Shown here piece after piece: positions 3,078 to 25,575 of a stretch of DNA of 28,056 bases. The position numbers and the translations under genes are program-made. Source of the DNA: a virus; IMG/VR virus record IMGVR_UViG_3300005915_000084, positions 1-28,056 of that record; one strand, 5' to 3'. The notes beneath the pieces were generated by a model. It was not told where the DNA came from and did not search any database. It saw only the letters and a list, made by a program, of their open reading frames with translations. Positions within the stretch are counted from its first letter, which is position 1. Each line of letters opens with the position of its first letter.

Positions 3078-3165
3078 TGGTGGACGAGGTGGGATTCGAA
3101 CCCACACGAGAATTAATCTCACAGAATTTTAAATCCTGTGCGTCTGCCTATTCCGCCACTCATCC
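3078..3165 (-). tRNA. tRNA-Leu (anticodon UAA)
   Basis: The minus strand folds as a type II tRNA. The 7-bp acceptor stem pairs 3159-3165 with 3082-3088 (one G-U pair). The anticodon loop TTTAAAA is at 3127-3133 with anticodon TAA at 3129-3131, closed by a 5-bp stem with one G-U. A long variable arm contains GAGA/TCTC, and the T arm is GTGGG-TTCGAAT-CCCAC. The discriminator A and a genome-encoded CCA end the gene at 3078. It decodes UUA leucine. A long variable arm together with UAA fits leucine rather than serine or tyrosine. It is the only tRNA I see in the window and is co-directional with the flanking leftward genes. Confidence 0.95.
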
Positions 3166-9780: not shown

Positions 9781-11074
9781 GCCAAATAGTAGACATGCCC
9801 CCGAGTTCGGCATCAATTTTGGCCCGGTGCGCTAAGAATCTATTAGGCGAGCCGCCGTGATGATCAGGAGCATAGCCTATGCAACGTGCATAGGCTGTCT
9901 CTTGATTTACGCAGGCATCAAAACACAACATAGTAAATTGCTTGACGCCCAGTTTCTTAGCTATCCTGATAGCGCATAAGACTGTTAGCGAACTGGAACT
10001 CATCTCCAGATCTACCGGATGGAAGATGATTTTATCCTTGAAGTCCGAGTAGAAATGTCTTGACTGATAGGCCACAAACAACTTGCCTCTGGCAGGTCTA
10101 CATGTACCCTGCAAACTAGTATCCTGTTGCGCGCCGTACACAGGATTTGGTAGATTCAAGCTTTCTACCTTGTGTATAGCATCATTCATCGCAATAACGG
10201 GCCACTTGCGATTAGAGAAATCCGCAGTAGATAGTTCATCTAAGCTTGGACCTTTCCCCACCAAGTAACAACCCCGCCTCTCAAAGTATTCCCTTTCGCT
10301 CCCAAACAGTTGCGATCCCTCGGAATTAGGGTACCATCTCAGCGTACCCGGCACCCTCGTGTACCGAAGATCCAAATACTCCGTGACTTGTTTGTTGCTT
10401 CGTGGAATCCAGATAGTACCATCTGCGGCTCTTCGAATCCGCATACCATATAATTCTGTGGGGACATCCTTGAAGGTATGTACGAACTTCTCTTCTGGCA
10501 TATTCACGGTCTCCTTAAATCTGCGGCTGGCTTGATTATGTGTGATGATGGGTGTAGTATCACCTATACCCATATCTTTGTCAAAGATCTTACAATAGAT
10601 GGCGGGAATATTCGCAATCGTAAGTTCCCCAATCATGAAATATTTAGCCAACACACCGGCTAAAATACGCTGATCCCATACCGTAGGGGAATTCTTCTGG
10701 GCTGCTACCCATAATCCCACTAATTGTCGCGCCCGTTCGGTATTTTTCAGAAAAATCGTGCCACTAAGTAGTTCTTTACCGTCTTTATAGTGGACGCCAA
10801 TATCCGCTTCGAGTTCTCTGAAATAATCTAACGACCCGGTCACGGTAGCATCGGCGTCGATATACAGAATATTGTCTGTTGGGAACAACTTCAGCATGTC
10901 AGCCAGAAACTCGGGCTTAATCCCGCAGTTTGATACCCAATCTCCGCGTGACGGGTAGCCAGCTATATGATGCTTAACACCATTTTCTAGCAACGAGGCC
11001 CGTAATAGTTCTACTTCTTGCTGGTATGGCGTATCTATTGTATAGAAAGCTACGACACGTATGCTATTCACCAA
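9683..11074 (-). CDS. Two-domain protein: nucleotide-sugar glycosyltransferase plus GPSL-motif domain
   Basis: A 463-residue protein. The N-terminal domain (about 1-200) is GT-A-like, with the metal-binding DAD at 73-75 in LYIDADATVTG, a usual feature of glycosyltransferases acting on NDP-sugars. The C-terminal domain (about 270-440) opens with VGKGPSLDEL at 272-281, followed by PVIAMNDAI. A glycine-rich GxGPSL loop followed by an N/ND motif is seen in DUF115/MptE-like and sialyltransferase-like proteins of the GT-B or GT29 type; I cannot decide between them. It is the last gene of the leftward operon: its ATG overlaps the previous gene by 11 nt, and its last 33 codons overlap the exonuclease gene on the other strand. 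The predicted product seems to end naturally near STIWLTP, with a low-complexity extension after it. Confidence 0.8.
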   Translation of the reverse strand: MVNSIRVVAFYTIDTPYQQEVELLRASLLENGVKHHIAGYPSRGDWVSNCGIKPEFLADMLKLFPTDNILYIDADATVTGSLDYFRELEADIGVHYKDGKELLSGTIFLKNTERARQLVGLWVAAQKNSPTVWDQRILAGVLAKYFMIGELTIANIPAIYCKIFDKDMGIGDTTPIITHNQASRRFKETVNMPEEKFVHTFKDVPTELYGMRIRRAADGTIWIPRSNKQVTEYLDLRYTRVPGTLRWYPNSEGSQLFGSEREYFERRGCYLVGKGPSLDELSTADFSNRKWPVIAMNDAIHKVESLNLPNPVYGAQQDTSLQGTCRPARGKLFVAYQSRHFYSDFKDKIIFHPVDLEMSSSSLTVLCAIRIAKKLGVKQFTMLCFDACVNQETAYARCIGYAPDHHGGSPNRFLAHRAKIDAELGGMSTIWLTPKLPVSRVDDIPQQSQCSPEENRAPVPSES

Positions 11075-13589
11075 ACACCCCCTCGGTCAAGATGGTAAAT
11101 GTGTTATCATGCTCGCTACAAGTATCTTCGGACAGGAGGTTATTGTATTTTTGCGCGATATCACTACCACCAAACCAGTGTAGACCTACTGTATCCTTGT
11201 GTAATTGGCCTAAATTATATCTACGCTCGAATACACAACGCATACGACTATACGGCCAGGGGTATACAGTATGCATCGGGATGTTATAGAAACTTAACTC
11301 CGGGTACGTTTCTTTTAAATCCTCCCAGGCAGATCTGTATGTTAGAGCCTTGCTGAATTCTGGGCCATACAGCATCCAATAAATCGAACGGCACCCGACA
11401 CACTGATACTTCTCCGGGTTATAGCAACTGTATGCAAACTTAGCTACATCCCGGAAGAATGGATTATTGGGTGTCGAAAACATAAATCCAATCAACAGAT
11501 TCGTGCCATCGGAACATACCCCAGTGTTATGGCTTCCAGCTACCATACTATCGTGTAATGCATCTAGGCTACGCAGAAACAGAATATCGAAATCTGCGTA
11601 CCAGCCGCCTTCTTCCGCCAGGGTCATCCATTTGAAGAAATTACTCTTATGCGATGGCCCCATTGTATCAGGTAATCTGTCGTAGTAGGCCGGCGGCTCC
11701 CAATTCTCATCGATGGTTATGGGCAACTTACGGGCTTGGTCCATATAGTCTGGCCCGGTATACGCAAAGAAATCTTGAAAGTTGTCATTTTTCCACGGTT
11801 TCCCAGTAATTGCTGCTTGTGCCAGATGCAATGTAACTTGCCAGTTGGGATTCGTCTTACAGAAACTTTTGAGCGTAAGATACCGTAGCCAGGACAACGG
11901 GCTGCTACCCCAAAACAGATGCATGTGTCTCGGTATTTCCGACTGGGCAAGCGATTGACTGAGGATTGGCTGATGTACCAGCTTAAGTAAATCAGTATCG
12001 GGTGCGACTGACTGCCGTGGTTGCAGTGCTGGTGCTAAAGTTGGTAGTACCTTAGCGACTGTAGCCGTGAAAGTGTTCTTATATCCGCCATAATTACCGG
12101 CATTCATGGCGCTATTATACTTCTGTGACAGTGGGTCACCACCATACCAATGTATACCTACCGTTTCATCTGGCAACTCGTGGGTTTGCTCGAACACACA
12201 ATCCAAACTATTGTAGAACCAGGGGTATATCTGCTGTGTCGGTATCCGGTATACCGTAAGATCGGGATATTTGTTCTCGACCTCGGTTAGGGCCGGACGC
12301 GTAGTCAGTATTCTGCGATAATCTTTACCATATAGCATGCGGTAGATAGCATGTATACCCGCGCACTGGTACTTCGTTGGCGTGTAACAGGTATAAGCCA
12401 TCTGTGCCGCGTCCTTAAAGAACGCATTATCCGGCGTCGAACACATGAATCCAATCAGTAGATTCACGCCATCGAAACAGATGCCTGTATTAACAGACCG
12501 GTTCTCCATGACTTCCGCAAGCGGATTCAGACTTTTGACATACAGTATATCTAGATCCGAGTACCAGCCACCTTGTGTAGCTAGTGTAGTCCACTTGAAG
12601 AAATTACTCTGGTGGGAGGCACAGATATCCTTAGGAGTATTCTCAAATCCAGCGGGTGGCTGCCAGTTATCATCCAAAGTTAGCGGCAACTTATCCAATT
12701 GATTCGTATAATCCCTACCGCTGTATGCGAAGAAATCTTGAGTATTGTGTTCATCCCACGTTTTATCGGTGATGGCTGCGCTAGATCGATGCAGTGTAGC
12801 CTGCCAGTCAGGATTTGTTGCACAGAAACTTTGTAGCGTTAGATACCGCATCCAAGACAGCGGGCTGTCGCCCCAGAAGAAATGCATATGCTTGGGGATA
12901 CGGGCCTCTGGTTTCGATTTACTGGGGGCTAGAGTGACGGGGGCTACGATCGTATCCGTTGTTGGCTTCTTATATCTACCTATATTCTCGCGGAACTGTT
13001 GAATCGTAGGCGGATTCCCGCCGTACTTCAAGGGGTGCCACACAGGTAACTCGCCGCTATAAGCTAGGCTTTCCTCAAATATCGGCGAACTAAATAGCTT
13101 GCCGCCAGCAGCTTCAACACTAGCGCTATACACAGGATCGAACTCACCGGGATTATCGGAGTGTAATAACCCGATTTTATCAATCACGCTTCGTGAGGTG
13201 ATATTACAACCACCCCGCACGTAAGCATACCGCTTATCCGGGGAATCGTTACCCACAAGTAACTGTTCACCCGCAGCCCGCTGCGCACGATTAATCAGAT
13301 CCTCGACATCAAAGACTATTGCATCCATATCCAGGCGTATCACAACATCGTAATTATTCCGCCGCTTGAGTAACGTGAACAGCGTGTTACCCTTAACGCA
13401 GAAGTCATTTATACACGAGATGTGATGCCCGCGATATAGTTCCCGAACGCGATTAATACTACCGCCAGAACACAGGAAATAGAAGTCATAGCGGGCACTA
13501 ATATCCTGAAGCGACTTGTTAGCTTCGATGAACTTAGCCACTGCGGGATCGCAACAACTCCAAAAGATGGGCTTACACAAATGATTCAT
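11064..13589 (-). CDS. Triple glycosyltransferase with two tandem GT32-like modules
   Basis: An 841-residue protein with three catalytic-looking domains. The N-terminal domain (1 to about 225) has DMD at 87-89 in VIRLDMDAIVFD. Two modules of about 270 residues then follow, beginning at residues 231 and 552 with the near-identical IPKHMHFFWG and IPRHMHLFWG; each has a DxD (DLD at 345-347, DFD at 666-668) after SNFFKW and GGWY, matching the GT32/DXD sugar-binding class. Their strong similarity shows an internal duplication. I placed the start at 13589, which has AAGGGG about 9 nt upstream and overlaps the radical SAM gene by 17 nt; an in-frame start at 13757 would overlap it by 185 nt. The three active sites may build a short glycan in sequence. 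Confidence 0.88.
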   Translation of the reverse strand: MNHLCKPIFWSCCDPAVAKFIEANKSLQDISARYDFYFLCSGGSINRVRELYRGHHISCINDFCVKGNTLFTLLKRRNNYDVVIRLDMDAIVFDVEDLINRAQRAAGEQLLVGNDSPDKRYAYVRGGCNITSRSVIDKIGLLHSDNPGEFDPVYSASVEAAGGKLFSSPIFEESLAYSGELPVWHPLKYGGNPPTIQQFRENIGRYKKPTTDTIVAPVTLAPSKSKPEARIPKHMHFFWGDSPLSWMRYLTLQSFCATNPDWQATLHRSSAAITDKTWDEHNTQDFFAYSGRDYTNQLDKLPLTLDDNWQPPAGFENTPKDICASHQSNFFKWTTLATQGGWYSDLDILYVKSLNPLAEVMENRSVNTGICFDGVNLLIGFMCSTPDNAFFKDAAQMAYTCYTPTKYQCAGIHAIYRMLYGKDYRRILTTRPALTEVENKYPDLTVYRIPTQQIYPWFYNSLDCVFEQTHELPDETVGIHWYGGDPLSQKYNSAMNAGNYGGYKNTFTATVAKVLPTLAPALQPRQSVAPDTDLLKLVHQPILSQSLAQSEIPRHMHLFWGSSPLSWLRYLTLKSFCKTNPNWQVTLHLAQAAITGKPWKNDNFQDFFAYTGPDYMDQARKLPITIDENWEPPAYYDRLPDTMGPSHKSNFFKWMTLAEEGGWYADFDILFLRSLDALHDSMVAGSHNTGVCSDGTNLLIGFMFSTPNNPFFRDVAKFAYSCYNPEKYQCVGCRSIYWMLYGPEFSKALTYRSAWEDLKETYPELSFYNIPMHTVYPWPYSRMRCVFERRYNLGQLHKDTVGLHWFGGSDIAQKYNNLLSEDTCSEHDNTFTILTEGVFGE

Positions 13590-14523
13590 GAGCCATTTCC
13601 CCTTGTAATGCGTCAAGACAGTTGTTATAACTCTCGTAGTAACATTTCTTGCAACGCGAGCCGTCAAAAACTGCGGCCCCATCGAAACTTTCCCAGCGAC
13701 ACATACGAAAAGACTCTGGCATATGATGTAGATCATCCGTAGCATACTGGACGCCACAGCAGGGATACATATAGCCGTCAGCCCACAACACAGGCTTAAG
13801 CAGACTTATATAGCAATTCTCGGTACCACTAGTATAGTCACTGCGGTACTGATAGATCGCCTTATCTGTCAACGGCGTACAGATACGTTTCACAGCGTCC
13901 ATCTGCATATCATCGGGATCGAAGATATTTTGTACGAATCTAATGTGCGTAATATTGCTGATAGCTGTAGCCAGATTGCATATGCCAATCGCTGTAGACA
14001 TATTAACATTATGGCCCACAACAAAACTGATACCGATGTCTACATTTGGGAGCTTATTGCAGGTTCGAATGATCCGATTATAACTATACTCGTTTTCAGT
14101 ATCCGTTACCGAGATTCTAGCCCAAGTTAACGCGGCGTCAAGATAGGCTAAATCAGCGGCAGTCTTCGAGAGTATGATACCATTGGTAACAAGACCCATA
14201 GCAATAGATTGTTGCTCAAACAATTTGATGATGGTCTCAAACTCTGGATGCATGGTAGGTTCACCACCACCAGTTATGGTAACAGCCTCAGTTCCCAGTC
14301 TCGCGAAATATGATACTATATCCGCGATCTCGCTAATATCAAGTTCTAGTGAGCGATCTTCATCTCGACAAGAGCACCATTTACAGTTACTATTACAACG
14401 ATTCGTGGGGTTGAACTGTAAGTGTATGGGAACGATCATGCCGTCCACAACACAATCAGCTTGGCGCCTTATAACTTTCCAGGGTAACTGGCCGGCTGAT
14501 ACAAAGGCTTGCTTACTGTCCAT
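13573..14523 (-). CDS. Radical SAM enzyme with C-terminal cysteine cluster
   Basis: A 316-residue enzyme with the radical SAM signature CxxxCxxC at C43, C47 and C50 (CNSNCKWC) and the SAM-binding TITGGGEPT that follows. Near the C-terminus, a YPCCG segment and a later CKKCYYESYNNC provide cysteines for an auxiliary iron-sulfur cluster, as in SPASM/twitch-type members. These enzymes generate a 5'-deoxyadenosyl radical to modify peptides, sugars or cofactors. The start at 14523 is set by GGAGGAAAC directly before the ATG and gives an 11-nt overlap with the methyltransferase gene; the longer frame from 14565 would overlap more. Flanked by a methyltransferase and glycosyltransferases, it may act on a sugar or on a peptide side chain; the substrate is unknown. 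Confidence 0.9.
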   Translation of the reverse strand: MDSKQAFVSAGQLPWKVIRRQADCVVDGMIVPIHLQFNPTNRCNSNCKWCSCRDEDRSLELDISEIADIVSYFARLGTEAVTITGGGEPTMHPEFETIIKLFEQQSIAMGLVTNGIILSKTAADLAYLDAALTWARISVTDTENEYSYNRIIRTCNKLPNVDIGISFVVGHNVNMSTAIGICNLATAISNITHIRFVQNIFDPDDMQMDAVKRICTPLTDKAIYQYRSDYTSGTENCYISLLKPVLWADGYMYPCCGVQYATDDLHHMPESFRMCRWESFDGAAVFDGSRCKKCYYESYNNCLDALQGEMAHESFV

Positions 14524-15049
14524 GTTTCCTCCAGGTCGCGAAGATACATCCAGTGGCGGGGGCAATTTTATGGTAGCCAGGTATTAATATGATTTCTTGG
14601 AAACCTAATACTGACACATCAGCGACTTCCCAGTAACTTTTATGCGTCTGATAGTAGTGTTCGCCGAAGCCTGTTGGATCGCGTTTTTGAATGTACTTAC
14701 CAGCCGGCACCATTAGCATCAATTTGTTGAAATTACGCATGATACTGGCTATAAGTTCTTTAGCATCCTTTACCGGTAGATGTTCCAATACATCGATAAT
14801 CATAACACAATCGTATAGTGCGGGGTCAAGCAGCTTATAATAATCTCGTATATCTCCACGTATTGCTGCACAGTTACGTAGTCTGCCCCGTTCGCGAGCC
14901 GCTTTTATGTACTTTGCAGAGATTTCTATGCCAACTTTATACTCACAAGGGGACATGAGTAATCGGGTAAAGAAGCCCGCCCCGAACTCGACCACAGTGC
15001 GGCTATCTCTGGTCTCTTTGTATATCCAGTTAGCCAGTGTTGTGAACAT
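14513..15049 (-). CDS. Class I SAM-dependent methyltransferase (178 aa)
   Basis: A small Rossmann-fold methyltransferase. Motif I is VVEFGAG at 19-25, the acidic residue ending strand 2 is in VGIEIS, and IIDVLEHL is the post-II motif common in methyltransferases of small molecules and sugars. There is no obvious DNA- or RNA-recognition domain. Its ATG directly follows the stop of the upstream GT2 gene with no gap, and its end overlaps the radical SAM start. A methylated-sugar or peptide substrate is inferred from the operon. Confidence 0.87.
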   Translation of the reverse strand: MFTTLANWIYKETRDSRTVVEFGAGFFTRLLMSPCEYKVGIEISAKYIKAARERGRLRNCAAIRGDIRDYYKLLDPALYDCVMIIDVLEHLPVKDAKELIASIMRNFNKLMLMVPAGKYIQKRDPTGFGEHYYQTHKSYWEVADVSVLGFQEIILIPGYHKIAPATGCIFATWRKHGQ

Positions 15050-15805
15050 TTACAATGTCCCCCAATTACTACCGATATTCCGTACAAGTACACCTCTACG
15101 TGCATCATACAATTGTTTGTTGTGCGCCCACCTATGTTGCATATCTAACTCGCGTCCCGGCTGTGCTCGTGGATGGTATAGATGTACGACACGCGAATCA
15201 GACTGAGCATATTCACAGCCATACAATTGCAGCCTATCTACAATATCATTATCATCCCAGGCTTGACCCGTGAAATCCTCATCATAACCCCCGATATCTA
15301 TGAAGTAATCACGCTTAACACCCAAGAAAAACGGTAAATGAACCTTGAGATTTGCACAATGCTGGTACCTATCAAGATCATGTCTACCGGATTCAATTAA
15401 TCTGGTAAGGTAATGACCATTGACATCATTCTTGCCTTGAGGTATCGCTAGTGTATCCTCATTTGCCTCAAGGATGTGTAACAGATCTAATACGGTCTCC
15501 TCGTCAACATGAAACATCTCGGCACAAGTTAATATGATGAAGTCAGCTTCGCTGATTTTGGCACCGATGTTCAGCGCATAGCCGGGTATACGCCAATTTA
15601 GTTCCTGCCCTTCGACCGGACCAGTATGTAGGTATCTGGCTCCGTAGGTCCGACACAGCTCCTCAGCTTTACCGGGGTGCCCGTCGTTCAGAACCAGTAT
15701 ATCCACGCCTTGCTCAGCCAATTTCTGCGCAGCTAGACTCTTTAACCCCCAGTCTAGAAGGCCATCACGCTGGAATGTTGTCATAAGTATCGTGCATTTA
15801 GGCAT
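15050..15805 (-). CDS. Family 2 glycosyltransferase
   Basis: A 251-residue GT-A enzyme. The N-terminal nucleotide-binding strand is TILMTTFQRD (residues 5-14), with LNDGH at 39-43 in the place of the usual DDGS. The C-terminal part has LTCAEMFH and GGYDEDFTGQAWDDNDIVDRL, the galactosyltransferase-type C-terminal motif with a catalytic-base-like DD/ED pair. These features also occur in the second domain of the 606-residue double glycosyltransferase in the same operon, so the two are paralogues. It overlaps the preceding cysteine-rich gene by 8 nt. It should add a sugar from an NDP donor; donor and acceptor are unknown. Confidence 0.9.
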   Translation of the reverse strand: MPKCTILMTTFQRDGLLDWGLKSLAAQKLAEQGVDILVLNDGHPGKAEELCRTYGARYLHTGPVEGQELNWRIPGYALNIGAKISEADFIILTCAEMFHVDEETVLDLLHILEANEDTLAIPQGKNDVNGHYLTRLIESGRHDLDRYQHCANLKVHLPFFLGVKRDYFIDIGGYDEDFTGQAWDDNDIVDRLQLYGCEYAQSDSRVVHLYHPRAQPGRELDMQHRWAHNKQLYDARRGVLVRNIGSNWGTL

Positions 15806-16043
15806 AGTCTTTACATCCTAGACATGAGGTATTGGTACGTGCACAATTTTTAAGACTGCACCATCGTAGACCCCGGCCCCCGCAGCAAGATGATACGACT
15901 TTTTTCATCGTGCGGTAGTGGCAGATAGGCAGTATCGGTATAAATACATAGTAATCCCCACCATCTCGTATATATCCTTCTGGACACGATGGCGGCTTAC
16001 CCCGATGCGGTGCTATAAGTGTAGAGTCTGGACCCTGTCTCAT
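15798..16043 (-). CDS. Cysteine-rich miniprotein, 81 aa
   Basis: An 81-residue protein with eight cysteines at positions 20, 41, 53, 54, 62, 67, 74 and 77, six of them in the last 30 residues (SCCGGRGLRWCSLKNC and SCLGC). I do not recognise a family. The spacing could bind zinc or an iron-sulfur cluster, or form disulfides. Its reality is supported by tight coupling: the ATG overlaps the preceding methyltransferase stop (ATGA), and its own stop overlaps the next gene by 8 nt. A role as small partner or carrier for the radical SAM or transferase enzymes is possible; a peptide substrate of the radical SAM enzyme is another speculative option. Confidence 0.7.
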   Translation of the reverse strand: MRQGPDSTLIAPHRGKPPSCPEGYIRDGGDYYVFIPILPICHYRTMKKVVSSCCGGRGLRWCSLKNCARTNTSCLGCKDYA

Positions 16044-16657
16044 TTAATCACACTCACAATGATTCTGCCTTCGTTGACGGCAGACGGCTGCGATGTTACG
16101 GTGTAGTCCGGCCAGAGATTCTGTATATATTCTGGCATTATGCGTACACGTGGAACGCCTTTAGGGCATTTTTCAATACCCCAGGTCTGGCCGTCACCCT
16201 CAATGGCTGGCGGCGATTCACCAAGGGGCGTAAGTACCAACACGATACGTTTCAGTGCCCAGGCGTCTAGGCGCTGTAATAACGCCGTGGCTCGCTTAAT
16301 CGTTACGCAATGATGTAAAACATTCAGGCATAAGACTGTATCATATGGATGATCCGGGCACCAGTTGTACGCGTTACTGAGCACGAACTCCAGTGTATCG
16401 GGATCACCAAACTGATGTTTCAGTTTGAGACAAGTCTCGTGATAGACTTCAGCGCGATCGACGCCTAGACACTTTGATGCGCCATTCGCCCAAGCCTCGA
16501 AGACATAGTAGCCAATGTTACAGCCCAGGTCCAAGATGCTTTCGCCTACCACACCGTCGGGAAAGATTAAATCATACTCAGGTCTACGGTCTCTACCTTC
16601 ATGTGTCACACCATTAATTTTGAAGCCTTGATAATGTACTCCCGCATGCTTTGTCAT
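16040..16657 (-). CDS. Class I SAM-dependent methyltransferase (205 aa)
   Basis: A Rossmann-fold methyltransferase distinct from the 178-residue one. Motif I is ILDLGCNIG at 41-49, with an acidic residue after strand 2 in LGVDRAE and LCLNVLHHC as the post-II motif, a pattern close to small-molecule and tRNA-wobble-type (CmoB-like) enzymes. The N-terminal region (YQGFKINGVTHEGRDR) may form the substrate lid. Both ends overlap neighbours by 4 nt (ATGA), so it is translationally coupled in the modification operon. Substrate is unknown; a sugar hydroxyl is an inference. Confidence 0.87.
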   Translation of the reverse strand: MTKHAGVHYQGFKINGVTHEGRDRRPEYDLIFPDGVVGESILDLGCNIGYYVFEAWANGASKCLGVDRAEVYHETCLKLKHQFGDPDTLEFVLSNAYNWCPDHPYDTVLCLNVLHHCVTIKRATALLQRLDAWALKRIVLVLTPLGESPPAIEGDGQTWGIEKCPKGVPRVRIMPEYIQNLWPDYTVTSQPSAVNEGRIIVSVIK

Positions 16658-17025
16658 AGGTACTTCACTCCATTCGAAGTTGTTACGTCTAACAGCCTTA
16701 TTGAAACATCATCCTCGCCTATTTGGCGGTAGCCACGGCAATCTTTAGCTAGACTAATTCCAGATGCCTGGAAACTACTTTGCATGGCTTCCCATTCTTC
16801 GTCAGACAACTTCCGTCTACGGATACATTCATAGACTTTACAAACAGCCGCCACGAAACAAGTATCTTTATCGTGATACCCCAGATTGCCGGTGTAATTG
16901 CTGAATATATCGTAGTCATCACGCCAACCCGTATGTTGTATAACCCACCACTTATAGACAACTGGCAAGTATCTATCAGCAGCGCCAGCTTGATTCTTAA
17001 AAGCTTCCCACCTAGCCTGTGACAT
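16654..17025 (-). CDS. C-terminal part of a split paralogue of the 198-aa protein
   Basis: A 123-residue frame whose sequence matches the C-terminal two thirds of the 198-residue protein encoded at 17202-17798: both share HTGW, RRKL(S/T)DxEW, GIxL, DC, RQIG, LLD and a terminal KYL. In the same frame upstream, separated by one TAA and two codons (positions 17026-17034), lies the matching N-terminal part. The ATG at 17025 has only a weak ribosome binding site (ACAGG), so translation may depend on readthrough or reinitiation. Its stop overlaps the next gene (ATGA). It may be a genuine two-part protein or a recently broken gene. Confidence 0.6.
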   Translation of the reverse strand: MSQARWEAFKNQAGAADRYLPVVYKWWVIQHTGWRDDYDIFSNYTGNLGYHDKDTCFVAAVCKVYECIRRRKLSDEEWEAMQSSFQASGISLAKDCRGYRQIGEDDVSIRLLDVTTSNGVKYL

Positions 17026-17031
17026 TGCCTG

Positions 17032-17202
17032 TTATTTTTGTGCTTGTCGTAGTGTGTAAGGGAACTCCGTGAATACTTTTACACCCCGATTCTCGTCTAA
17101 GGGTATCCACCAAGAGCAACTACCAAATGTACCTATTGGATAGCCATCAAGTAATAATGTGGTATCCGTACACAGCCGTATGTCTCCCTGAATATCAAAC
17201 AT
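17032..17202 (-). CDS. N-terminal part of the split paralogue, 56 aa
   Basis: A short leftward frame of 56 codons from ATG 17202 to TAA 17032. Its sequence has IQGDIRL, then GTFGSCSWWIPLDENRGVKV, lining up with LEGNIEL and GTYGATVWWFPLDDDSGLKI at the N-terminus of the 198-residue neighbour. The ATG overlaps that neighbour's stop (TAATG). The TAA is in the same frame as the 123-residue C-terminal part, two codons (CAG GCA) before its ATG. A single base change would join the two into a product of about 181 residues. Confidence 0.6.
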   Translation of the reverse strand: MFDIQGDIRLCTDTTLLLDGYPIGTFGSCSWWIPLDENRGVKVFTEFPYTLRQAQK

Positions 17203-17798
17203 TATAGATACTTCTTGCCGTCGACATCAGCTATATCCAGTAACTTGATGCCGCCTTCAGCATCATACCCAATTTGTCGGCCCCAGATGCAGTCGTTATG
17301 CAGCTCGATACCGTCCTTGAGAAAGGCTATACGCATATCTGCCCATTCGGTATCTGTTAACTTGCGCCTATGCCCACAGTTGTATATCGGCATACGCCAT
17401 ACCGGATAATAGACAATGTCATCGCGTTTCTGTTGAAGAGTAGAACGACCCCTGACATACTCATAATTTGTATGCCAGCCCGTATGACAGGCGAGTGCTA
17501 CACTCAAGACCTGCGGCCAATACCTTAGCGAGTTAGTGGCATCTTTGTACCAACGTAAAAGTTTCTTATATCGGGCGTTAATGATAGCCCAAGCATCTTG
17601 TTCCGTATCACAGCCATAGTTATTAATTATCTTGAGGCCCGAATCATCGTCCAAAGGGAACCACCATACAGTAGCGCCATAAGTACCCACAATATTACCA
17701 AGAGTGCATACAAGAGTTTCCACACCTTCAGATGGGCCAAGTTCGATGTTCCCTTCCAACATGTAGATTTGCTTAATCATATAGATGGGCTTAGTCAT
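17202..17798 (-). CDS. Unknown 198-aa protein with faint kinase-like motifs
   Basis: No family is certain. The order of features resembles a reduced protein-kinase-like fold: VWWFPLDDDSGLKII with K56 where a strand-3 lysine would sit, a later E/D-rich helix, then DGIELHNDC around H167-N168-D169 where the HxD catalytic loop is expected, and IGYDAEGGIKLLDIAD with D188 where DFG is expected. The catalytic Asn is not obvious, so it may be a pseudokinase or unrelated. Its start directly follows the TAA of the double glycosyltransferase, and a related but split copy lies immediately downstream. It probably works with the modification enzymes around it; the function is inferred from position only. 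Confidence 0.65.
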   Translation of the reverse strand: MTKPIYMIKQIYMLEGNIELGPSEGVETLVCTLGNIVGTYGATVWWFPLDDDSGLKIINNYGCDTEQDAWAIINARYKKLLRWYKDATNSLRYWPQVLSVALACHTGWHTNYEYVRGRSTLQQKRDDIVYYPVWRMPIYNCGHRRKLTDTEWADMRIAFLKDGIELHNDCIWGRQIGYDAEGGIKLLDIADVDGKKYL

Positions 17799-19619
17799 TT
17801 ACTGATTCCTTATGATAGTCCCGCTGAGCTTGTTAAAACGGTCCAAATTCTGGTGATATCGTTCCTCATCATGGTAACGTTCATGCGATAAGTGAACTAT
17901 GCGCGCCTCAGAGACATGTTTCTGTAGGCCATAACCCTGAAGGCGCGTAACGAAATCGTGATCTTCGCAGCCCCAACCCAAGAAACCTTCATCGTAGCCA
18001 CCGATAGCTGTGAAATGTTTCTTGTGTATCGCCATGAAGAATGGGAAATCCGTTTGCAAGATACCCATGGTATCTAGTATGGCCTTGGATATATCATCAC
18101 CAGCCCTCACCGCAGCCAACCCATCTCCGTAATCATCCCAGCCTTTACAGGTAGAATATATGGTGTCGCTTACTAGAAGTGGCTCCAGCAGCAATTCTAT
18201 TGTATTGGGTTGCAGATGATAAATCTCAGGACATGTTAGTACGACGATATCCCCAGTAGCCATACGGACACCGGTATTGATTGGCACACTCGGTACGCGC
18301 CTACCCGATTCCTCTAATCGGATATACCGGGCACCAAACTTCTGGCAACAGTCTAATGTGTCTCGTGGCATGTCGCCGCCATCGTCCACAACGATGACTT
18401 CGATATCCGGTTGGGTACGTATGGATCTTAATCCCAGTACTAATAAGTCATCCCGATTATATGTGGGTATGATTATGGATGCCTTTAGGGTATCGGAAGA
18501 TACTGGAGTGGCCGGCGTCTTGAGTAACGTAGTTTTGAGCGGCGGTATACACAGTCTACTCGCTCCGGGTATCTGTAGGAAGTCCGCTAATACCTGCTGG
18601 TCAGACTTGACTTTACCGATTTTCCACTGGCCAGTATCATAGGCTTTGCCGGTCTTAAGGGCAGTTAGCTTCGCCTTCAATGCCGGCACTTGTATGTGGA
18701 CCTCGTTCCGCGCGAAAACCTTATCATAAGTCTCACGCTCAAACAACATAAATAACGCGGCCTGTACATTTAGGCGTAGACCTTCCGCGGATGGCCCACC
18801 CCAAGGTACAGGTTTCCCGTCGCGGTAATAGTGATACACGGTATGATTCGGTACGCCATAAATCGGTATATCTTGCATGTAGGCCCATATAGCCAACGTC
18901 TCTTCTTCATAGCCCCAGATGTCTATAATAGACGGCCAACTCGGCAAACGATTATAGATTTCGCGGGTAAAAAAGTACGCGGCGCCGACTACGGCATCTA
19001 TACGTCGAGGGCCCGCACCGGGTATCACATTATTATACTTAATCACAGGGTAATTGTCCGCGGGGATATACTTCATGTATGCGCCACATCCCTGCGCGGC
19101 TTTATCTGCCATGTTTGCGACTGTCGGGCAAGCTATACACTGATTCTCTAAAACAAACTCAGCCATGCCTCTGAACAGCCCATCAGAGTATTCCTCATGT
19201 GGGTCAATACACACAAACACGTTGCCCGTGGCTGCGGACAACGCGATATTTTGCGATAGGCCCGCCCCGTGTCTTACGGTGGATCGTAAAACCGTGATAT
19301 CAGTCCCCAGATTATCGCAACTACCGTCAGTAGAATTATCGTCACAGATAATTATCTCGGCATTGGGATAATCAGATCGAACGTTATCAATAGTATCCTT
19401 AACCCAATGACCTTCTTGAGCCGAAGCAGCAATGACGGAGAGTCTGATACCTAACTCAGTTTTAAGTGTACTTGCGGCTTTTGTTGCCGCCAGCATCTTA
19501 GCTCGGCCCTTAGCTTTTTGGCAGGGTAAGCAGGGTGGCGGCTTAGGTTTCTTGGTACGTCCAGCTAATAAATCCAGCTTATGCCGGAGTTGCTCGCTTA
19601 CGTTGTTCGAGTCTGGCAT
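17799..19619 (-). CDS. Double family 2 glycosyltransferase
   Basis: A 606-residue protein with two GT2 domains. The first (about 58-300) has LSVIAASAQEG, IICDDNSTDGS at about 90-100 and GYEEETLAIWA. The second (from about 379) has ASIIIPTYNRDD, VIVVDDGG, VLTCPEIYH and GGYDEGFLGWGCEDHDFVTRLQ, closely related to the separate 251-residue GT2 of this operon. The N-terminus carries C30xxC33 in PPCLPCQKAKGRAK, a short basic cysteine motif that may bind metal or nucleic acid. I chose the ATG at 19619 (a TTG precedes it); it overlaps the upstream gene by 41 nt. Two active sites in one chain suggest stepwise addition of two sugars. Confidence 0.9.
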   Translation of the reverse strand: MPDSNNVSEQLRHKLDLLAGRTKKPKPPPCLPCQKAKGRAKMLAATKAASTLKTELGIRLSVIAASAQEGHWVKDTIDNVRSDYPNAEIIICDDNSTDGSCDNLGTDITVLRSTVRHGAGLSQNIALSAATGNVFVCIDPHEEYSDGLFRGMAEFVLENQCIACPTVANMADKAAQGCGAYMKYIPADNYPVIKYNNVIPGAGPRRIDAVVGAAYFFTREIYNRLPSWPSIIDIWGYEEETLAIWAYMQDIPIYGVPNHTVYHYYRDGKPVPWGGPSAEGLRLNVQAALFMLFERETYDKVFARNEVHIQVPALKAKLTALKTGKAYDTGQWKIGKVKSDQQVLADFLQIPGASRLCIPPLKTTLLKTPATPVSSDTLKASIIIPTYNRDDLLVLGLRSIRTQPDIEVIVVDDGGDMPRDTLDCCQKFGARYIRLEESGRRVPSVPINTGVRMATGDIVVLTCPEIYHLQPNTIELLLEPLLVSDTIYSTCKGWDDYGDGLAAVRAGDDISKAILDTMGILQTDFPFFMAIHKKHFTAIGGYDEGFLGWGCEDHDFVTRLQGYGLQKHVSEARIVHLSHERYHDEERYHQNLDRFNKLSGTIIRNQ

Positions 19620-20031
19620 CAATTTCTCGCATAAAAGGCTCTTCGATGTTACGATCTTTGGCTATAGTTAAGCATACGTCATCGGCTAGACCGTGATCAT
19701 AAGCATTGAGTAACACTCTAGCTATGATAGTATCGGGTACACTTGAATCGATATCTAGAATCATACGGCGGAAAGACCTGTTACGCCACTTACCTTCCTT
19801 ATAGCATTCGCGTAGACTCTTGACTTTTAGTATACCTTCAATGGGACCATTAGCAAACAGCGTAACGGTCGGGACTAACTTAACTACATCAGCTGTAGCC
19901 TGTTCAAGCACCATGATATTAACCTGATCATCGACGGTCTGTAGGTTATCGCTGGTGAAAGGTATACCGGCCCCCGAAATCTCCCTGGACTCAGTCGTTG
20001 ACACCCAGATTTCTACATATTCTTTTTTCAC
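19579..20031 (-). CDS. Hypothetical protein at the tail/modification boundary, 150 aa
   Basis: A 150-residue protein that I do not recognise. The N-terminal half is beta-prone (KEYVEIWVST, VVKLVPTVTLFANGPIEGILKV) and the C-terminal half alpha-helical and charged (MREIDARLEQRKRA). It starts with GTG, overlapping the tail-tip gene stop as GTGA, and its end overlaps the double glycosyltransferase start by 41 nt. This position makes it either the last tail gene or the first modification gene. A small structural protein or tail chaperone is possible. Confidence 0.65.
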   Translation of the reverse strand: MKKEYVEIWVSTTESREISGAGIPFTSDNLQTVDDQVNIMVLEQATADVVKLVPTVTLFANGPIEGILKVKSLRECYKEGKWRNRSFRRMILDIDSSVPDTIIARVLLNAYDHGLADDVCLTIAKDRNIEEPFMREIDARLEQRKRATPA

Positions 20032-22951: not shown

Positions 22952-25204
22952 TTACCCCTCTGCTAACGTGCCTCCAGGCTCATCGCCTAGCACGGCCGTG
23001 TATTCACCCAGCGCGACTGTGCCGGGTATCCCAGCTCTATCATAATGGGCCAAGAAATCACCCTTGTCTGGACTTATGTTCCATTCCTCATCACCGTCCC
23101 ACCATAACCAATAATCTCCGCTTTCAATCTCGTAGCATGGTACGCTATTGTAGGTGCCGTTTTCACAATAATCACCGTTACATCCGGCGGTTCCAGCCCC
23201 TGAAAACACATAGTCCGCTCCCGGTGCAGCTGTAGTAGTCGTAGGCGGCACAGTCGTAGTTGTAGGCGGCACCGTCGTAGTCGTGGGCGCAACAGTAGTA
23301 GTTGTAGGCGCCACAGTCGTAGTCGTGGGCGCCACCGTCGTGGTTGTAGGAGCGACAGTTGTAGTAGCTCCACATGGGCCGGAGGTTACAACTGCCGTGG
23401 CGCCTATGCTGTTGGTGCAGGAATCAGTGTCTGTGCATGCAGTAGCGCCGCAAGCATGTTCTGCAATTGTATCATTCCAGGGGTCGCAGGCGTGGGTATA
23501 AGGTGTTCCCGCCCACTGCTTAGTGCAATGCCCACCGCCAACACGTTGGATATTGAGATACCAGACAACGCCCGCCTGCCAGTAAAATCTTATGGTAAAA
23601 GCCTCGTCGCCCCCCAGCCAATTACAACTAGCTGTATTCGTTAAGGTCTGACTGCCATTGTAGGGTGCAAAGTCACCAGCAAGCCCTGCGAACGTTACGC
23701 ACATTTGATTTGGCAAGGCCGGATTACAACTATTACAAGCTATGGGGGCCACCGTCGTGGTCGTGGGCGCAACAGTAGTAGTTGTAGGCGGCACAGTCGT
23801 AGTCGTGGGCGCCACAGTCGTAGTCGTGGGCGGCACCGTCGTAGTCGTGGGCGCAACAGTAGTAGTTGTAGGAGCGACAGTTGTAGTAGCTCCACAGGCA
23901 CCTGAGGCGACGGTTCCTATGGCAGAGGCAGCTTCGCCGCCGCAGTTATCTGTATACACGTGCTCAAATACCGCGTTCCAAGGGTCACAAGAATGTCCCC
24001 CCCAGTACTCGCAAATAAGTGTTTTACAACTGCCGGTGTAGAGCTTCAATACCCAGTAAGTGGGGATTTGTACTGCACCGAACTGTAGCCGCAAATACCC
24101 GGCCCCAACGGCAGCGGAATCCCAGTAGCAGGGAACGACATCGCGGCGATATGTCACGAGAGTGTCGCCATTAAAGACCGCTAGGGAACCAGTGAGTCCA
24201 GTTAGTGTTACACACATTTCTTCTGGCAACGGTGGATCACAACTATTGCAAATCGGCGGCACAGTTGTAGTTGTCGGAGCCACCGTCGTAGATGTTGGCG
24301 GCACAGTCGTAGATGTTGGCGGTACCGTCGTAGATGTTGGCGGCACAGTCGTAGTGGTACAGATACCAGAAGCCACAGCAGCCGTTGCGCCAATGCTGTC
24401 GGTACAAGTATCTGGATCAGTACAGGCTACAGCATTACAAGCTATCTCGGTGAACGTATCATCCCACGGCGCGCATTCATTCGGGATAGCGTCCCCAACA
24501 AAAGTCTTGATACAATTGTTCACGGATTTAACGAAGATGTACCAGAGATCGCCTACATACTGTAAGGTGACATGCGGCGTATCCGCGTCATCCGTCCAGG
24601 TACAGCTAGACCGGAACGTGACATCATTCTGGCCATTGTACGTAGCAAGGTCGCCGGCCAAGTCAGCTAGTGTCACGCACAAATCATCCGGGATCGCTGG
24701 GGCACAACTATTACAAGCTGGTGCCACAGTTGTGGTTGTAGTAGGCGCGACTGTTGTGGATGTGGGCGGTACCGTTGTTGTGGTAGGTGGTACCGTTGTC
24801 GTTGTAGGAGCAGCTGTTGTCGTTGTAGGCACGTCGGAGACTAATATGCCTTCAAGCTGAAGCGTCAATTTATAATTGTTATCGCGGGCATCTTCATAAT
24901 CTAACGGCTGATTTAATACAACAACACGCCAGACTGCGGCATCATGGTCTGTATAACTGATATCTTCACCTGCCGCCGTCTCAAAGAATGTACGTACAGC
25001 CGCGATCTCTGTATCACAGATGCCGCGGAAGTTAAGCAGGAACTGGCGTAACACTGGTGTACGTTTGTACGTATAGATACCCCCGCCGATGACCTTGAGG
25101 ATATTCGGACGATTATTCAGTATATCCGCGTCACCCAAATCGGGATTACGGACTGTCAAAGATAGTGTCGGCGAATCATATGGGTATTGAAACACCACTG
25201 ACAT
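22952..25204 (-). CDS. Mucin-like tail protein with three Cys-rich modules
   Basis: A 750-residue tail protein. Residues 1-126 form a minor-tail domain (FQYPYDSPTLSLTVRNP, FFETAAGEDISYTDHD). Three homologous modules of about 120 residues follow, starting at C164, C319 and C490 with CNSCxPxxPxxxCVT and the motif YNG or FNG, each with many cysteines and ending SGxC. They are separated by (TTTTV-A/P-P)n linkers, and a different domain (about 660-750, with DYWLWWDGDEEWN) ends the protein. Stalk-like Thr/Pro linkers with disulfide-rich knobs suit an exposed fibre. The ATG at 25204 overlaps the preceding stop (TAATG) with GGAG upstream. The linkers are plausible O-glycosylation sites for the transferases encoded in the same operon. 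Confidence 0.82.
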   Translation of the reverse strand: MSVVFQYPYDSPTLSLTVRNPDLGDADILNNRPNILKVIGGGIYTYKRTPVLRQFLLNFRGICDTEIAAVRTFFETAAGEDISYTDHDAAVWRVVVLNQPLDYEDARDNNYKLTLQLEGILVSDVPTTTTAAPTTTTVPPTTTTVPPTSTTVAPTTTTTVAPACNSCAPAIPDDLCVTLADLAGDLATYNGQNDVTFRSSCTWTDDADTPHVTLQYVGDLWYIFVKSVNNCIKTFVGDAIPNECAPWDDTFTEIACNAVACTDPDTCTDSIGATAAVASGICTTTTVPPTSTTVPPTSTTVPPTSTTVAPTTTTVPPICNSCDPPLPEEMCVTLTGLTGSLAVFNGDTLVTYRRDVVPCYWDSAAVGAGYLRLQFGAVQIPTYWVLKLYTGSCKTLICEYWGGHSCDPWNAVFEHVYTDNCGGEAASAIGTVASGACGATTTVAPTTTTVAPTTTTVPPTTTTVAPTTTTVPPTTTTVAPTTTTVAPIACNSCNPALPNQMCVTFAGLAGDFAPYNGSQTLTNTASCNWLGGDEAFTIRFYWQAGVVWYLNIQRVGGGHCTKQWAGTPYTHACDPWNDTIAEHACGATACTDTDSCTNSIGATAVVTSGPCGATTTVAPTTTTVAPTTTTVAPTTTTVAPTTTTVPPTTTTVPPTTTTAAPGADYVFSGAGTAGCNGDYCENGTYNSVPCYEIESGDYWLWWDGDEEWNISPDKGDFLAHYDRAGIPGTVALGEYTAVLGDEPGGTLAEG
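23220..24835 (-). repeat. Four coding arrays of 21-nt repeats (TTTTVAP/TTTTVPP linkers)
   Basis: Within the mucin-like tail gene, four arrays at about 24720-24835, 24253-24360, 23740-23893 and 23220-23373 repeat a 21-nt unit encoding TTTTVAP, TTTTVPP or PPTSTTV. Codons vary between copies (ACT, ACC, ACA and ACG for Thr), so the protein repeat is kept more strictly than the DNA. On the opposite strand the arrays create long artificial open frames rich in VVVVGAT. Confidence 0.85.
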
Positions 25205-25575
25205 TACTGGGACTCCATGAACGTGAAGGAGACTTCCCACACCATGTTATCACGTAGCTCTACGAATTGTATTGGATTCGTGATAATGAATCCAGTACGT
25301 TCTACACTATTGTGATCTGTGACTTTGATTTCCAGGCCGGTTGTAGCTTCCAAGAAATCCCGCAACAGCGTCTCGTCATCAAACACAATGAATCGGTAGT
25401 CAAACATTGTCCACACGCTACGTCCAGATACAGCTCGCGTCATCGCATCGCCGAAGTCACTACGGGCAATGATAGCATTCATCTCTACCTTACGCGTGTT
25501 TGCAAACTCCGGGCTACGCAGGGTCACTGTCTCGGTCGTCGAGCCAGTTTTAGGATAGCTCATTACGAAGCTCAT
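25204..25575 (-). CDS. Minor tail protein, 123 aa
   Basis: A 123-residue protein with the look of a small phage minor-tail component. The segments TETVTLRSPEFANTRKVEMN, WTMFDYRFIVFDDETLLRDFLEATTGLEIKVTDHN and WEVSFTFMES are beta-rich. The phrase FLEATTGLEIKVTDHN resembles FFETAAGEDISYTDHD in the N-terminal domain of the next gene, so the two tail proteins share a domain. The ATG at 25575 overlaps the tape-measure stop (ATGA) with GGAAGGG upstream. It likely acts at the tail tip beneath the hub. Confidence 0.78.
   Translation of the reverse strand: MSFVMSYPKTGSTTETVTLRSPEFANTRKVEMNAIIARSDFGDAMTRAVSGRSVWTMFDYRFIVFDDETLLRDFLEATTGLEIKVTDHNSVERTGFIITNPIQFVELRDNMVWEVSFTFMESQ

Follow-up and report, generated by a model that had tools for sequence, protein, structure and literature searches.

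The analysed window spans the entire IMG/VR record IMGVR_UViG_3300005915_000084 of a virus (28,056 bases), which is classed as linear and is thus possibly a fragment of its genome. Its minus strand carries an operon that runs from tail-type genes through glycosyltransferases, methyltransferases, and a radical SAM protein to further glycosyltransferases, and all genes described at this locus lie on that strand. A two-domain GT2 glycosyltransferase of 607 residues (17799..19622) is followed by an intact gene for a 198-residue protein (paralogue 1, or copy 1; 17202..17798), which has an ATG start and an AAGGA-type Shine-Dalgarno sequence. The ATG of the next open frame overlaps the stop codon of paralogue 1 (TAATG), and this frame encodes 56 residues and a TAA (17032..17202). 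After a spacer of two codons, CAG GCA, an ATG at position 17025, 6 nt past the TAA and without a Shine-Dalgarno sequence, opens a frame of 123 residues (16654..17025), the stop of which overlaps the start of the following gene (ATGA). The array is tightly packed on both sides of the split gene. The downstream neighbour encodes a methyltransferase-like protein of 205 residues (16040..16657) and has its own Shine-Dalgarno sequence (GGAG; duplex energy −8.1 kcal/mol). The 56- and 123-residue frames are the upstream and downstream parts of a second paralogue (copy 2), split by the in-frame TAA at 17032..17034, which aligns with Ala69 of paralogue 1. A preliminary description of this DNA had given the coordinates, the frame, the three lengths (198, 56, and 123 residues), the single TAA, and the two-codon gap, and every one of these proved exact.

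That description had also called the genes tandem paralogues, one of them split, and comparison of the two copies bears this out. A tblastn search of the whole window with paralogue 1 as query hit copy 2 (E = 6e-25) in an alignment interrupted by a single TAA. The 56-residue part aligned to the intact copy with a score of 85, compared to a maximum of 49 in 1000 shuffles, and the 123-residue part scored 160, compared to a maximum of 54 in 1000 shuffles. Homology to the intact gene thus spans the TAA, and the frame is identical before and behind it. Both parts had been said to align well, which holds in that the scores are far above chance, but overall identity between copies 1 and 2 is only 33–34% and synonymous sites are saturated (pS 0.83). 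The same residue occupies 41 alignment columns in copy 1, in copy 2, and in the copy of the related contig G002, and these columns lie on either side of the stop.

G002, a 68-kb contig (locus L004) found through a neighbour protein, is collinear with the window over 20 kb, with protein identities of 40–84% for most genes and ~30% for a repeat-rich tail protein. The 607-residue glycosyltransferase is 63% identical and collinear there. At the place of the tandem pair, G002 has one intact copy of 192 residues, which is 47–48% identical to copy 1 (over 192 residues) and 29% identical to copy 2. The methyltransferase-like protein, 70–71% identical, directly follows this single copy, beginning 17 nt later. 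Copy 2 is the sole gene of the shared stretch without its own counterpart in G002. Either the duplication arose in the lineage of the window and copy 2 diverged quickly, or a copy was lost in G002. In the same stretch, the 251-residue glycosyltransferase (15050-15805) and the C-terminal half of the 607-residue one match each other's G002 relatives at ~32% identity, a cross-match that represents another duplication in this operon, and a Cys-rich protein of 81 residues (15798-16043), which matches no Pfam family above the cut-off, is 74% identical in G002.

Scans of viral contigs with each copy and with profiles of the paralogues found no relative beyond G002. The genome contig collection yielded none, and DNA and protein searches of the phage collection yielded no match to this gene. 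Among 17 primase-related records, only G002 carries the gene or its methyltransferase neighbour, although many of these records are fragments and absence from them means little. No relative carrying a second copy, split or whole, was found in these collections, and our literature search found no report of the locus. The preliminary description had proposed comparing relatives to see whether the split is conserved; G002, the only relative with the locus, has no second copy, and the comparison does not support conservation of the split. Three records nearly identical to the window (99.8–99.99%) do not reach the TAA, none of them extending past window position 13005. They differ from the window at 1–14 positions over 8–13 kb, differences which suggest that variants segregate in this phage population. 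One of these contigs (G001) ends at position 13005, inside a gene for an 897-residue glycosyltransferase whose two Gly_transf_sug domains form an internal repeat (11064-13757), perhaps reflecting assembly trouble.

The age of the duplication and the age of the break can be considered separately. Because synonymous sites are saturated, the duplication appears old; judged from the sequences, the two copies may have separated long ago or may evolve very fast. Apart from the one TAA, the copy 2 frame is open over 182 codons, with no second stop or frameshift. In a neutral simulation of copy 2 after inactivation, the probability of finding no further stop was 0.24 at 0.05 substitutions per site, 0.08 at 0.10, and under 0.03 at 0.15, indicating that any inactivation of copy 2 was recent. 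Compared to the intact copy, pN was 0.45 for each half of copy 2, and thus the segment past the stop shows no faster decay; its codon usage still matches that of the genome's genes. Saturated synonymous change in an otherwise open frame indicates that copy 2 encoded a protein during most of its existence. The stop itself may then be recent, both halves may still be in use, or the stop may be an error, and the data separate these readings incompletely.

We conclude that copy 2 is probably a dispensable duplicate that was recently hit by a nonsense mutation. The presence of just one copy in G002 suggests that the second copy is dispensable. A recent break had been one of three options offered at the outset, and it fits best, given the lack of a further stop or frameshift and the equal pN of the two halves; read-through, another of the three, does not fare well, as described below. 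The operon bears, among its glycosyltransferase, methyltransferase, and radical SAM genes, a tandem pair of a fast-evolving protein of 180–200 residues. Copy 2 kept its reading frame over the greater part of its past, and in the course of events that we envisage it would recently have gained a single nonsense codon. Full-length protein 2 would no longer be produced, and the phage would depend on copy 1. As the methyltransferase has its own Shine-Dalgarno sequence, it need not be silenced by a non-functional copy 2, and its translation is probably unharmed. The locus resembles an interrupted coding sequence or a young pseudogene after tandem duplication in having one nonsense codon in an otherwise intact frame, a redundant neighbour, and no counterpart in a collinear relative. 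It differs in that both halves are open, a start codon adjoins the stop, and residual expression is possible. As a broken duplicate, copy 2 would represent ordinary phage gene decay. Several points count against decay: the same pattern would be expected if both halves were still translated and under selection, an ATG closely follows the stop at a distance compatible with reinitiation (PMC10666635), and phages are under pressure to shed dead DNA. The window consensus is the one record found that covers 17032-17034, and the recent age of the stop, and even its reality, are presumed.

If both halves are in use, the route would be termination-reinitiation, in which ribosomes that terminate at the TAA begin again at the ATG 6 nt downstream and produce 56- and 123-residue chains that fold together. 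Two assembling chains, the last of the three options, are the main rival reading; we regard them as unlikely, although several features are consistent with them. The gap lies within the ~10–20 nt range for termination-reinitiation (PMC10666635), the gene sits in a dense array with TAATG and ATGA junctions at its flanks, and the two halves are equally conserved. The TAA falls at the start of a helix predicted with low confidence (residues 66–86) rather than in a clean linker, a position that speaks for decay; a restart at the ATG would keep most of this predicted helix. Coupling drops steeply with distance: in E. coli, reinitiation fell by 5–70% at a gap of 2 nt (30–95% was kept) and by 80–100% at a gap of 38 nt (0–20% was kept) (PMC10666635). 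Removal of the Shine-Dalgarno sequence reduced reinitiation in four of five E. coli gene pairs, but such a sequence is not strictly needed (PMC6728339). At the second ATG of copy 2, the corresponding duplex energy is +1.6 kcal/mol, in keeping with the absence of a Shine-Dalgarno sequence and arguing against a restart. The RNA just downstream of the stop has a raw folding energy of −14.2 kcal/mol per 60 nt. An ATG this near is also expected by chance at about 6% of positions; in the window's genes, 6.3% of codon positions are followed by an in-frame ATG no more than three codons on, a share that rises to 14.5% when GTG and TTG are counted with ATG. The nearby ATG past the TAA is thus unremarkable, and no relative with the split was found. 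Copy 2 resembles the termination-reinitiation gene pairs known from bacteria and archaea (PMC6728339, PMC10666635) in its 6-nt spacing between stop and start within a crowded polycistronic array, but it differs from them in lacking an overlap and a Shine-Dalgarno sequence and in that its products would be parts of one ancestral protein; coupling here is putative. Were the halves made and paired, the case would carry more weight, as an example of a protein divided into two subunits through one nonsense mutation that reinitiation rescued.

An assembly or sequencing error, with a sense codon at 17032-17034 in the real phage, is distinctly less probable. In favour of an error, the stop is one codon of one metagenomic consensus sequence, with no second record found over the site. 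An indel at the AAAAA run, however, cannot explain it, because the frame is unchanged across the stop; a substitution error would be needed, an uncommon event in consensus sequences built from short reads, and elsewhere only 1–14 differences over 8–13 kb separate the window from the near-identical contigs. Programmed read-through of the TAA, which would yield some full-length protein 2, seems highly improbable. The frame does go on and is conserved behind the stop, but TAA is the genome's main terminator, ending 14 of the 24 genes in the window, and neither copy 1 nor the G002 copy has a stop at this site. TAA is also the least leaky stop codon in bacteria. The earlier suggestion that the stop is read through therefore finds no support. 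The same use of TAA as a terminator led us to reject an alternative genetic code or TAA recoding, as the code is standard, and frameshift recoding does not apply to a site with the identical frame on either side.

Sequence searches of Pfam, PHROGs, NCBIfam, and the PDB gave no convincing match to the paralogues; none of the three family libraries describes this family, which belongs to a phage operon rich in glycosyltransferase and methyltransferase genes and with a radical SAM gene. We modelled copy 1 with AlphaFold2 from an alignment of only three sequences. Mean pLDDT was 58, with values of 74–79 in blocks covering residues 61–100, 86 around the helix at 150–160, and under 50 for residues 1–45. 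Foldseek gave no significant match to this model (best E 0.05 for viral entries and 0.17 for the PDB), with several kinases among the matches, and VIA-align listed 50 entries, mostly protein kinases, at weak Z scores of 3.8 to 5.1 (best match Z 5.1, rmsd 5.1 over 130 residues). Several of these alignments end with model residue 188 at, or 189 just after, the DFG aspartate of the matched kinase (AceK 475, MPS1 664, MEK1 208, BRAF 594). All three sequences share G34, G38, G41, K56, D169, and D188, with roughly kinase-like order and spacing, the motifs being assigned by eye and from weak structural alignment. A model of read-through copy 2 was too poor to use (pLDDT 44.7), with no match above Z 2.5.

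The weak structural matches of copy 1 suggest, as a lead rather than as membership, that the family has a small protein-kinase-like fold, perhaps that of a divergent kinase or pseudokinase. The possible likeness lies in the predicted order of strands and helices, a Gly-rich stretch, Lys56, Asp169, and Asp188. Unlike protein kinases, the family matches no kinase profile: a PF00069 search of the window and G002 at E values up to 10 gave no match, and no kinase family was matched in Pfam, PHROGs, or NCBIfam. The chain also stops soon after the DFG-like D188, the HRD-like His is lost in copy 2, and there is no Asn five residues past the catalytic Asp. If the kinase-like fold is correct, the TAA would part the nucleotide-binding section with the beta3 lysine from the catalytic aspartates. 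It is conceivable, but very unlikely, that this is a minimal phage kinase-like protein of which one tandem copy now works as two chains, the 56-residue chain supplying the Gly-rich loop and lysine and the reinitiated 123-residue chain the catalytic aspartates; such a two-chain protein might work together with the intact copy or control it.

Elsewhere in the window, the radical SAM protein inside the glycosyltransferase operon (13573-14565) has distant relatives (23% identity) in Pelagibacter and Synechococcus phages. A tail-type protein of 762 residues (22952-25240) has repeated Cys-containing domains and long TTTTV/PPTTTT linkers, and weakly matches the PHROG 'major tail protein'. A tRNA-Leu gene with anticodon TAA lies at 3078-3165.
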